From Macromonas bipunctata (GTDB lineage Bacteria > Pseudomonadota > Gammaproteobacteria > Burkholderiales > Burkholderiaceae_C): 64,000 nt of DNA. The notes beneath the pieces are model-generated. The model did not search any database. It had not been told where the DNA came from and saw nothing but the letters and a program-made list of their open reading frames with translations. Numbering within the stretch: position 1 is the first letter of the stretch; the number at the start of each line of letters is the position of its first letter. Shown here in pieces: positions 15,156-17,673 of the stretch. The position numbers and the translations under genes are program-made. The DNA lies in the NCBI RefSeq assembly GCF_002837135.1, contig NZ_NWBQ01000060.1, forward strand, positions 1-64,000. The letters are read 5' to 3'.

Positions 15156-15204
15156 CCACACGCTTTTAAAAGACGGTTTTTTCGGAACTTTTGTGCAAGC
15201 TACG

Positions 15205-15323
15205 GCACGTCGGCACGTCGGCACGTCGGCACGTCGGCACGTCGGCACGTCGGCACGTCGGCACGTCGGCACGTCGGCACGTCGGCACGTCGGCACGTCG
15301 GCACGTCGGCACGTCGGCACGTC
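15205..15323. repeat. Tandem 8-bp repeat, 14.9 copies of GCACGTCG
   Basis: Fourteen exact copies of GCACGTCG run from 15205 to 15316, followed by seven further matching bases. The unit is not a multiple of three, so all six frames stay open and encode periodic 8-residue peptides (for example RHVGTSAR); nothing suggests these are real genes. The array sits in the only stretch longer than 300 bases without a coding region (15054-15395), between the minus-strand terminator at 15124-15155 and a hairpin at 15342-15370. Perfect identity of all units suggests recent slippage expansion. Confidence 0.97.
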
Positions 15324-15395: not shown

Positions 15396-15845
15396 TCAAG
15401 CTTCGATCAAATCAAAACTGGTGGTGATGTCGGCGGTTTTGCCCAGCATGATGCTGGCCGAGCAGTATTTGTCGTGGCTCATGGCAATGGCGCGCTCCAC
15501 CGCTGCCGCAGGGATGCCCTTGCCGGTGACGGTAAAGTGCATGTGGATTTTCGTGAACACCTTGGGGTCGGTGTCGGCGCGTTCGCTGGTGAGCTTGACG
15601 CTGCAGCCGCGCACGTCGTGGCGGCCACGCTTGAGGATCAGCACCACGTCGTAGGCGGTGCAGCCGCCGGTGCCTGCCAGCACGGTTTCCATCGGGCGCG
15701 GGGCCAGGTTGGCGCCGCCGTTTTCGGGTTTGGCCGCATCGGGCGCGCCGTCCATCGTCAGGGTGTGGCCGCTGCCGGTTTCGGCCACAAAACCCATGTG
15801 GGAGCGGGTACCGGCAGCGCCGGTCCAGGTCACGGTACATTCCAT
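15396..15845 (-). CDS. OsmC/Ohr-family protein
   Basis: A 149-residue protein of the OsmC superfamily, small dimeric peroxidases that reduce organic hydroperoxides with two cysteines. Both expected cysteines are present, in GTGGCTAYDV (about residue 62) and HDKYCSASIM (about 128). The overall sequence fits the YhfA-type branch, whose physiological role is less clear than that of Ohr. Expression is monocistronic by context: the sRNA promoter region lies upstream and diverges, a hairpin and a terminator follow. A 15-base inverted repeat at 15871-15885 lies 26 bases before its ATG. Confidence 0.88.
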   Translation of the reverse strand: MECTVTWTGAAGTRSHMGFVAETGSGHTLTMDGAPDAAKPENGGANLAPRPMETVLAGTGGCTAYDVVLILKRGRHDVRGCSVKLTSERADTDPKVFTKIHMHFTVTGKGIPAAAVERAIAMSHDKYCSASIMLGKTADITTSFDLIEA

Positions 15846-15870
15846 CGCAAATCCTTGTTACACAAAATCA

Positions 15871-15885
15871 TGTTGCAACGCAACA
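15871..15885. promoter_or_regulatory. Inverted repeat TGTTGC-AAC-GCAACA, candidate operator
   Basis: Perfect 6-base arms separated by three bases overlap the -35 hexamer of the plus-strand promoter at 15873 and sit just upstream of the minus-strand OsmC-like gene. A dimeric regulator bound here could control both directions. The motif does not match a consensus I can name. Confidence 0.4.
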
Positions 15886-15901
15886 AATCAGGGTTTATAC
15901 T
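15873..15901 (+). promoter_or_regulatory. Sigma-70 promoter, TTGCAA-17-TATACT
   Basis: The -35 hexamer TTGCAA (15873-15878) and -10 hexamer TATACT (15896-15901) are separated by exactly 17 bases. Transcription would start near 15908, about 176 bases before the ilvA ATG and 105 bases before a strong terminator. It is the clearest plus-strand promoter of the region. Confidence 0.7.
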
Positions 15902-15907
15902 AACGTC

Positions 15908-16047
15908 ATTGCATGCAAGCGGGTTACTGTAACGGTTCTTGCCCCCTTGCATTGCAGGCTGGAGTTTTCCAGCGTTGCCAGTTGTCTCCTCTGCCCTCTA
16001 TGGGTGGTTATATGCCCGGACCAGTTTATGTGTCCGGGCTTTTTTTT
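15908..16047 (+). ncRNA. Candidate small RNA or terminated leader upstream of ilvA
   Basis: About 140 bases bounded by a good promoter and a strong intrinsic terminator, with no convincing coding region. Visible structure: a palindrome TTGCATGCAA at the 5' end, a small hairpin CTGGA-GTTT-TCCAG in the middle, then an unpaired-looking pyrimidine stretch TCTCCTCTGCCCTC, then the terminator stem. The stretch CTCCT is complementary to Shine-Dalgarno sequences, a feature of several known trans-acting small RNAs. I do not recognise a known family; it lacks the hallmarks of 6S, SRP and tmRNA. The alternative is an ilvA leader with attenuation. Confidence 0.55.
16014..16047 (+). terminator. Intrinsic terminator, perfect 8-bp stem plus T8
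   Basis: GCCCGGAC (16014-16021) and GTCCGGGC (16032-16039) pair perfectly around a 10-base loop and are followed by eight T. It lies 37 bases before the ilvA ATG, so it either ends the small RNA or works as an attenuator for ilvA. Confidence 0.88.
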
Positions 16048-16083: not shown

Positions 16084-17673
16084 ATGTCACGCCACACGCC
16101 CTCTTGCCACGCCGACGCGTCGGCCCCCATCACCCCCGCCGATTACCTGAAGAAAGTCCTGACCGCCCGCGTGTACGACGTGGCCATCGAGTCCGACCTG
16201 CAACCGGCGCGCCACCTCAGCCAGCGCCTGCACAACAAAATCCTGCTCAAGCGCGAGGACCAGCAGCCCGTGTTCAGCTTCAAGCTGCGCGGTGCGTACA
16301 ACAAGCTGGCACACCTGACCCCCGAACAACTGGCCAAAGGCGTGATTTGCGCCTCGGCGGGCAACCACGCACAGGGCGTGTCGCTGGGCGCGCGCAAGCT
16401 GGGCACGCGGGCCGTGATTGTGATGCCCACCACCACGCCGCAGCTCAAGATTGATGCCGTCAAGAGCTTTGGCGGCGAAGTGGTGCTGTTTGGTGAGAGC
16501 TATTCCGACGCTTACGCCCATTCGCTCAAGCTGGAACAGGAACAAGGCCTGACCTTCGTCCACCCGTTCGACGACCCGTACGTGATTGCAGGCCAGGGCA
16601 CGATTGCGATGGAAATTTTGCGCCAACTGCAACGCCTGGGCTCCGATAGGCTGGACGCGGTGTTTGTGGCGATTGGCGGTGGTGGCCTAATTGCGGGCGT
16701 GGCCAATTACATCAAGGCCGTGCGCCCCGAGATCAAGGTCATTGGTGTGCAGATGAAAGACTCCGATGCCATGATGCAATCGGTGGCAGCGGGTGAGCGT
16801 GTCACGCTGCCCGACGTGGGCCTGTTCAGCGATGGCACCGCAGTGAAGTTGGTGGGCGAAGAAACTTTCCGCATCAGCCAGGAGTTGGTGGACGACTTCA
16901 TGGCCGTGGACACCGACGCGGTGTGCGCCGCTATCAAGGACGTGTTTGTCGATACCCGCAGCATTGTGGAACCCGCCGGAGCGATGGCGGTGGCGGCCAT
17001 CAAGCAGTATGTGGCCACGCACAAAACCAAGGGCGAGACCTACGCCGCCATCCTGTGCGGCGCCAACATGAACTTTGACCGCCTGCGCTTTGTGGCCGAA
17101 CGCGCCGAAGTGGGCGAAGAACGCGAAGCCCTGTTTGCCGTGACGCTGCCCGAGGAACGCGGCAGCTTTAGGCGTTTTCTGGAAACGATCGCCAACCTGG
17201 CCGGGGGCGCGCGCAGCGTCACCGAATTCAACTACCGCATCAGCCAAGCGCAACTGGCGCACGTGTTCATTGGCCTGACCACACACGGCAGGGGCGAAAG
17301 CACCAAGATCGCCACCAGCTTCGAGCAACAGGGCTTTGCCACGCTGGACTTGACGCAGGACGATCTGGCCCAAGAACACTTGCGGCACATGGTGGGCGGG
17401 CATTCGCCGCTGGCGCAAGATGAGCGCCTGCTGCGCTTTACCTTCCCCGAGCGCCCCGGTGCGTTGCTCAAATTTTTGAGCCTGATGCGCCCGAACTGGA
17501 ACATCAGCCTGTTCCACTACCGCAACCAGGGCGCGGACTATGGCCGCATTCTGGTGGGGTTGCAAGTGCCACCCAGCGACGATGCGGCATTCCAGGAGTT
17601 TCTGGCGGCGCTGGACTACCCGTGGGTGGAAGAAACGCACAACCCGGCGTACCGCCTGTTCCTCAAGACCTGA
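16084..17673 (+). CDS. ilvA: Threonine ammonia-lyase, biosynthetic
   Basis: A 529-residue PLP enzyme converting threonine to 2-oxobutanoate and ammonia, the committed step to isoleucine. The PLP-binding lysine is K67 in VFSFKLRGAYNK, and the glycine-rich phosphate loop is IGGGGLIAG. The C-terminal third contains two ACT-like regulatory repeats, starting near FAVTLPEERGSF and RFTFPERPGALL, as in the long, isoleucine-inhibited form. ATG 16084 follows the terminator, so the start is well constrained and the gene needs read-through or a promoter within 16048-16083. cobS starts eight bases after the stop. Confidence 0.95.
   Translation: MSRHTPSCHADASAPITPADYLKKVLTARVYDVAIESDLQPARHLSQRLHNKILLKREDQQPVFSFKLRGAYNKLAHLTPEQLAKGVICASAGNHAQGVSLGARKLGTRAVIVMPTTTPQLKIDAVKSFGGEVVLFGESYSDAYAHSLKLEQEQGLTFVHPFDDPYVIAGQGTIAMEILRQLQRLGSDRLDAVFVAIGGGGLIAGVANYIKAVRPEIKVIGVQMKDSDAMMQSVAAGERVTLPDVGLFSDGTAVKLVGEETFRISQELVDDFMAVDTDAVCAAIKDVFVDTRSIVEPAGAMAVAAIKQYVATHKTKGETYAAILCGANMNFDRLRFVAERAEVGEEREALFAVTLPEERGSFRRFLETIANLAGGARSVTEFNYRISQAQLAHVFIGLTTHGRGESTKIATSFEQQGFATLDLTQDDLAQEHLRHMVGGHSPLAQDERLLRFTFPERPGALLKFLSLMRPNWNISLFHYRNQGADYGRILVGLQVPPSDDAAFQEFLAALDYPWVEETHNPAYRLFLKT

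Follow-up and report, generated by a model that had tools for sequence, protein, structure and literature searches.

A divergent copy of a ribosome-binding-site-blocking sRNA family in Macromonas bipunctata, whose promoter carries a putative PhaR site that may tie carbon storage to gene control

The DNA between osmC and ilvA in Macromonas bipunctata is predicted to encode a small RNA that, by sequence and position, is a divergent copy of RF02278, a known sRNA family that blocks ribosome-binding sites. A palindrome resembling the PhaR operator overlaps the −35 element of its promoter, and through this putative site carbon storage may be tied to gene control. We think it probable that the RNA is a trans-acting, likely Hfq-dependent RF02278 ortholog, repressed by PhaR until PHB granules titrate this protein.

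Promoter, transcript and terminator

All coordinates refer to the window, that is, the whole stretch of 64,000 nucleotides that was analysed. A sigma-70-type promoter occupies positions 15873–15901 of the forward strand, with −35 (TTGCAA, 15873–15878) and −10 (TATACT, 15896–15901) elements separated by a 17-bp spacer. This promoter had been proposed in an earlier sequence-only reading, and was confirmed both by the sequence and by a promoter scan, which found two promoter-like sites in 1.4 kb where 0.5 were expected. Taking the start from the −10 element, the predicted primary transcript is approximately 140 nt in length (15908–16047, forward strand), as the same reading had given, and ends in a terminator hairpin followed by a T8 tract (16014–16047, forward strand). 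The terminator arms, GCCCGGAC and GTCCGGGC, span 16014–16039, and T8 then runs to 16047. A simple terminator scan, with a loop limit of 8, did not list the terminator for that reason; it was assigned, in agreement with the earlier reading, from its sequence, from the predicted fold and from covariation. The predicted 140-nt RNA folded with an energy of −56.3 kcal/mol (z = −4.4), which none of 200 shuffled sequences equalled. For the 3′ 66 nt folded alone, z was −5.45, and again none of 200 shuffles was equal.

Assignment to RF02278

At gathering scores, a search of the whole window against Rfam returned one tRNA and nothing else. The sequence-only reading had matched the RNA to no known family. 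This proved wrong: at relaxed thresholds, and only there, the last 65 nt (15983–16047) matched RF02278 (Betaproteobacteria toxic sRNA) at 35.9 bits (E = 7.4 × 10−6) over the full length of the model (1–64 of 64), a diverged match that does not reach the gathering cut-off of 50 bits. When the M. bipunctata genome was searched, the RNA was recovered at E = 1.6 × 10−5 and the next best match scored 26.4 bits; other sites, at 26.4 bits and less, were dropped, control genomes matching at the same level. Relaxed matches to RF02837, RF01719, RF00516 and others were set aside, with scores far under their cut-offs. Among 150 genomes of the same taxonomic family, RF02278 matched at E ≤ 0.1 in 135 and above the cut-off in 104, compared with 5 and 0, respectively, of 14 control genomes, the former at a loose E-value. 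A nucleotide search of 60 relatives gave one clear homolog, in genome G024, and mostly chance-level rows otherwise.

Gene order was conserved. Within the window, an osmC-family gene (NF008009) lies divergently at 15396–15845 on the reverse strand, and ilvA, encoding threonine ammonia-lyase (TIGR01124), lies downstream at 16084–17673 on the forward strand. In the 30 best-scoring loci fetched, a divergent osmC adjoined the RNA in all 30, coq7 stood beyond osmC in 29, and ilvA, using a query in the correct frame, was found downstream in 29. Sharing the osmC position with copies above the cut-off, the M. bipunctata RNA is the same gene by position, and the variants at L081, L087, L088 and L092 could be aligned with the window. 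It also has the two hairpins, the CU-rich linker complementary to ribosome-binding sites and the terminator of the family; the second CU-rich site, in the loop of hairpin 1, was not found (loop UCUAU). As it failed the score test, it was filed as a diverged positional ortholog and not as a formal Rfam member. On the far side of osmC, between it and a frame resembling a chemotaxis transducer, a perfect tandem repeat of CGGCACGT (15.1 copies, 15203–15323) is open in several frames.

For comparison across relatives, 111 gaps on the RNA side of osmC were used, from 111 of the 141 genomes with osmC: 30 with a high RF02278 score, 20 with a weak or absent one, 60 taken by osmC score, and the window. 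The core was present in 88 of these as TTGTC[TA][CT]C, and in 87 as TTGTCTCC; since the gaps were not chosen at random, 88 of 111 is no unbiased rate, and since the orthologs are related, counts among them are not independent events. Of the 23 gaps without a core, 22 served as the operator control, one being too short. The variant in the window, beginning with TTGTCTCCTCTGCCCT, was common to six relatives (G024, G136, G105, G088, G050 and G072).

Structure and covariation

The predicted mature RNA (15982–16047, forward strand), supported by the RF02278 match at 15983–16047 and by covariation, opens with anti-Shine-Dalgarno site 1, UUGUCUCCUCU (15982–15992, forward strand). Alignment and folding place this site in a mostly single-stranded stretch, its first nine letters being unpaired in the predicted fold. 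The sequence-only reading had noted a CTCCTCT pyrimidine loop here; the motif exists (15986–15992), but in the predicted fold it belongs to the mostly unpaired linker that leads into the first 3′ hairpin, and not to a loop. The complementarity of this stretch to ribosome-binding sites, also pointed out there, was borne out, and for an independent, terminated RNA, action in trans is probable. The first 10 alignment columns, which fall within site 1, did not vary in any of the 65 orthologs aligned; as the sequences had been selected by TTGTC[TA][CT]C, only the last letters of the site are an unforced test of conservation.

Hairpin 1 (15991–16007, forward strand), recognized by alignment, covariation and fold, has the shortened loop UCUAU. 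The second CU-rich site, which is present in many relatives, is lost from window-type RNAs, and the full CCUCC in this loop is also missing in some other aligned orthologs.

Covariation was assessed with 65 of the 88 cores, picked by hand before counting; the 23 omitted included the divergent L077 and L120. Standard pairs filled 95.4% of cells, and two-sided changes occurred at 11 of the 16 pairs. The total of 138 two-sided changes compares with 32.4 after shuffling (0 of 500 shuffles as high), and the signal was lost when the pairing was slid. For each of the two 3′ hairpins, the changes seen in these 65 orthologs provide covariation support. The earlier reading had made the RNA depend on conservation of its loop and stems; the stems covary, and site 1 is kept.

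Upstream of the core, folding and alignment predict a 5′ domain (15909–15973, forward strand) of two hairpins (15909–15957 and 15958–15973). Each of the six window-type members that were aligned has an extension beginning with ATTGYATGCA. The two-hairpin arrangement appeared in the minimum-energy folds of the window and of three of the four others folded (L081, L087 and L088). The domain of L108 folded poorly (z = −0.47), and L090 was outside the folded set. In G024, there is no 5′ domain and the core stands directly at the promoter, which marks the 3′ part as the conserved functional unit. By analogy with S17L, whose processing is described in an extract of PMC11722255, the 5′ domain is perhaps cut off.

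A PhaR-like operator at the promoter

The palindrome ATGTTGCAACGCAACAA (15870–15886), which overlaps the −35 element, differs at one position of 17 from YTKNTGCRNYGCANMAR, the consensus deduced for Ralstonia eutropha PhaR (PMC12849132, in extract). The published palindrome is therefore found, with one mismatch, at the promoter of the RNA, and the 15-base core of the site fits the pattern used for genome scans. In the terminator scan, the palindrome appeared terminator-like; this interpretation was dropped on the grounds of position and conservation.

When the 200 nt preceding the core were searched, 76 of the 88 orthologs proved to have a site with two mismatches or fewer, compared with 4.8 expected from dinucleotide shuffles, and 54 to have one with no more than a single mismatch, compared with 0.5. 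In a few of the 76, the best site differs from the one at the −35 element. Twelve orthologs had no site at two mismatches or fewer (nine had three and three had four), and PhaR is present in all 12 genomes. Among the control gaps without an RNA core, a site occurred in 1 of 22 (0.68 expected). This gap, L079 (G094), has the PhaR-like site directly before ilvA with the RNA core missing, and could represent a relic or a captured operator.

Twenty paralogs of the RNA elsewhere in the genomes were also analysed; these were non-osmC matches, mostly with higher scores, and did not include, for example, those at G066:C108, G021:C9 and G125:C111. A site was found upstream of one (0.84 expected), at L196 (G030:C17) with two mismatches, so the operator is no general part of RF02278. 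Outside this taxonomic family but within the same order, 28 copies from 25 genomes were compared; 13 had the site, where 1.24 were expected, and osmC was present in the 3-kb locus of 15 of the 28. These 28, three of which are second copies, remained from 30 after L180 (core unaligned) and L174 (a family genome already counted) were dropped. In 17 further copies from the order, the site (at most two mismatches) was found in 3, against 0.46 expected. A scan of named genomes for the operator and core combined matched at least 118 stretches, Variovorax paradoxus and Rubrivivax benzoatilyticus being among the species with this arrangement. Among the matches listed, comprising 80 loci, ilvA was within 700 nt in 56 of the 62 with room for it. 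From the 80 titles among the matches listed, we take 73 to be from Burkholderiales, with six named only as Proteobacteria or Betaproteobacteria and one as Singulisphaera.

PHB genes and phasin-linked copies

In the M. bipunctata genome, 18 sites fit the core pattern of the operator, while the reversed pattern, used as control, gave 2. Of the 18, one is the promoter of the RNA, three lie 72–133 nt before two phasin genes (TIGR01841), and one precedes a PHB depolymerase gene (TIGR01849) by 23 nt. The remaining 13 are not tied to PHB genes: nine are inside predicted genes, one is unclear, and three are intergenic: one follows rho (by eye), another precedes a SpoT/RelA gene and the last precedes an RTX-repeat protein. 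The second of these intergenic sites (L148, G000:C55:39062) is 41 nt before the SpoT/RelA gene start and could be chance; the third (L149, G000:C57:11340) is approximately 80 nt before the protein with the RTX repeat match. The other two of the four M. bipunctata phasin genes (on C111 and C50) have no such site just upstream, and no RNA of the GTCTCC type was found directly downstream of the phasin genes of this genome. PhaR (PF07879) is encoded once per genome in 145 of the 150 genomes, including M. bipunctata, where it is at G000:C24.

Eight of the 20 paralogs (L240, L243–L247, L249 and L250) lie behind phasin genes, each starting 13–116 nt past the stop codon. All eight of the corresponding phasin promoters contain the operator, seven with no mismatch and one with a single mismatch, and these RF02278 RNAs are possibly released from the 3′ ends of phasin mRNAs. 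The other 12 paralogs have varied neighbour genes; L235 and L233 follow, as seen by eye, genes resembling polyphosphate kinase 2 and thiolase.

Candidate targets

The sequence GAGGAGAC, followed by ATG at 3–10 nt, occurs nine times in the M. bipunctata genome and once in the reversed control. Profile matches identify the candidate targets as katG, ntrC, benB, an IclR-type regulator, a Phenol_MetA_deg protein, a Rid/L-PSP protein, a DUF485 gene (such genes usually encode the partner of acetate permease) and an aromatic-acid transporter, which scored 392 bits where the cut-off is 419. The ninth, a chemotaxis-type transducer, is a weak match whose ATG may be internal. Since many start regions are rich in purines, these motif matches serve as a lead only. 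The candidate carbon-uptake genes and sigma-54 activator would agree with the targets reported for S17 and NcS27 in extracts of PMC11722255, PMC5688073 and PMC10987360.

Alternative explanations

The sequence-only reading had also suggested that the RNA might be a cis-acting leader or attenuator of ilvA, with read-through set by amino acid supply. We consider this very improbable. In its favour, ilvA begins just 36 nt after the terminator in the window, a reading frame from 15913 runs uninterrupted into ilvA, and ilvA lies within the stretch of approximately 600 nt examined in 77 of the 88 orthologs. Moreover, a TATSAT hexamer, which could be the −10 element of ilvA itself, follows the terminator within 110 nt in 62 of the 88 loci (counted without a shuffle control), and occurs in 7 of 22 RNA-less gaps over a 160-nt stretch, but is missing in the window. 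The linkage is not conserved, however. Of the 11 orthologs without ilvA in the stretch examined, nine were followed (all but L077 and L127); five had no ilvA in approximately 2.7 kb, and in four it was roughly 0.8–2.6 kb away. Three of the six relatives with the same core variant (G136, G105 and G050) have no ilvA within approximately 2.7 kb, and the osmC–ilvA order is present in 18 of the 23 gaps from which the RNA core is absent. Nor did translation of the transcript reveal a leader peptide of regulatory amino acids: among start-led frames, none was rich in Thr or Ile, as that reading had proposed looking for, and the one frame that reads VTVTV has no preceding ATG, GTG or TTG start. The one fold examined contained no alternative anti-terminator. 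We therefore do not judge ilvA to be part of the function of the RNA. As a separate observation, at L269 (G078) approximately 1.1 kb with a transposase-like frame, recognized by eye, lies between the RNA and ilvA.

It is likewise highly improbable that the palindrome serves the divergent osmC instead of the RNA. It does sit between the two, and osmC adjoins 76 of the 80 loci among the matches listed. On the other hand, 21 of the 22 gaps that keep osmC without the RNA core have no site at two mismatches or fewer, and in 75 of the 80 loci among the matches listed, where about 5 would be expected by base odds, the side towards the RNA has a TAnnnT hexamer at promoter spacing (15–18). A third explanation, which we regard as unlikely, accepts a trans-acting RF02278 sRNA but has the palindrome bound by some other regulator, or merely shaping the promoter, and supposes no connection with PHB. 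The PhaR consensus is degenerate and was built on few R. eutropha sites (extract of PMC12849132), S17 changes with Bvg mode (extract of PMC11722255), and the 12 orthologs without a site would fit this explanation. Against it, the same motif precedes phasin and PHB depolymerase genes in M. bipunctata, and lies ahead of every one of the eight phasin genes that a sibling RNA was found to follow.

Discussion

In the PhaR-controlled scheme that we infer for the RNA, PhaR would occupy the operator over the −35 element when PHB is low, and transcription would be off. As PHB accumulates, the granules would attract PhaR, and the RNA would be switched on, together with phasins and PHB depolymerase. The precursor of approximately 140 nt would probably be cut at the CU-rich linker to give a double-hairpin RNA of approximately 66 nt, the 5′ end of which, UUGUCUCCUCU, could pair with purine-rich ribosome-binding sites and so repress translation, probably with the help of Hfq. 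Once induced, the RNA would damp carbon uptake and the catabolism of aromatic compounds, as well as regulators of which NtrC is an example.

More broadly, we lean slightly towards the view that RF02278 RNAs in Comamonadaceae-type bacteria serve PHB sensing as its riboregulatory arm. A single copy would be made from its own PhaR-repressed promoter and its siblings from the 3′ ends of PhaR-controlled phasin mRNAs, so that granules switch on RNAs that shut off translation of carbon-uptake genes and sigma-54 regulators. If so, PhaR, or a PhaR-like factor, becomes a candidate for the repressor postulated at the S17 promoter. Extracts of the literature on RF02278 RNAs identify no regulator of their transcription, and a 2021 review, in extract, describes the riboregulation of PHB in Cupriavidus necator as undeciphered (PMC8401924). 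The texts of PMC5688073 and PMC11722255 contain no mention of PhaR, PHB or phasin. Titles and abstract openings from a literature search showed no link between RF02278 and PhaR or PHB; the 2019 NcS27 paper (Sass) and Kimelman 2012 could contain one. If true, sharing of the PhaR operator, together with the linkage of sibling copies to phasin genes, would offer one directly testable answer to both the S17 repressor and the PHB riboregulation questions.

Comparison with known systems

The RF02278 RNAs were reportedly named, in a 2012 paper (Kimelman), for their toxicity in E. coli. The family includes the double-hairpin RNAs NcS03, NcS05, NcS27 and NcS62 of Burkholderia cenocepacia, and growth inhibition on overexpression in E. 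coli is stated, in the extracts, for relatives. The M. bipunctata RNA resembles these in its full-length structure, CU-rich linker, double hairpin and terminator. It differs from them in its sub-curated score, the lost second CU-rich loop, a longer 5′ domain, the osmC/ilvA locus and the PhaR-like operator. According to an extract of PMC5688073, processing of NcS27 to a short form is likewise indicated by dRNA-Seq, and NcS03, NcS05 and NcS27 rise 8.0-, 6.9- and 4.3-fold, respectively, in glucose medium, an increase that suits a signal of carbon surplus. Another Burkholderia sRNA, anti-hemB (RF02837), shows partial similarity; at 23.6 bits, against a cut-off of 49.5, the M. bipunctata RNA is not a member by score.

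S17 of Bordetella pertussis shares with the RNA a 17-bp spacer, a long precursor with a short product, and site 1. Extracts of PMC11722255 report that repression of BP2158 requires site 1, that RNase E processes S17L, and that S17 varies with Bvg mode; a repressor of the S17 promoter is postulated there but not named. The −35 element of S17, TTGCAT, is a form also seen in this operator among the orthologs, and S17 lies next to coq7, the gene beyond osmC in nearly all of the best loci here (29 of 30). In contrast to the M. bipunctata RNA, S17 is 190 nt in its long and 67 nt in its short form, keeps both sites 1 and 2, and is Bvg-linked; the CU-rich site lost from window-type RNAs corresponds to S17 site 2, with site 1 intact.

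The proposed working resembles that of MmgR. In Sinorhizobium meliloti, the PHB-limiting sRNA MmgR is itself under AniA/PhaR, which represses its gene, mmgR, by way of a palindrome of this type (extracts of PMC12542648 and PMC8401924); the alpha-r8 RNAs carry the CU core UUUCCUCCCU (extract of PMC12559287). A short sRNA with a CU core, a PhaR palindrome in the promoter and a link to PHB would thus be common to both, while MmgR/alpha-r8 RNAs are alphaproteobacterial. The covariance match to RF00519 (mmgR) was 18.4 bits, against a gathering score of 41, so the likeness is one of working and not of membership. If true, the PhaR–RF02278 circuit would be a parallel to MmgR in another bacterial class and, by the score test, in another RNA family.
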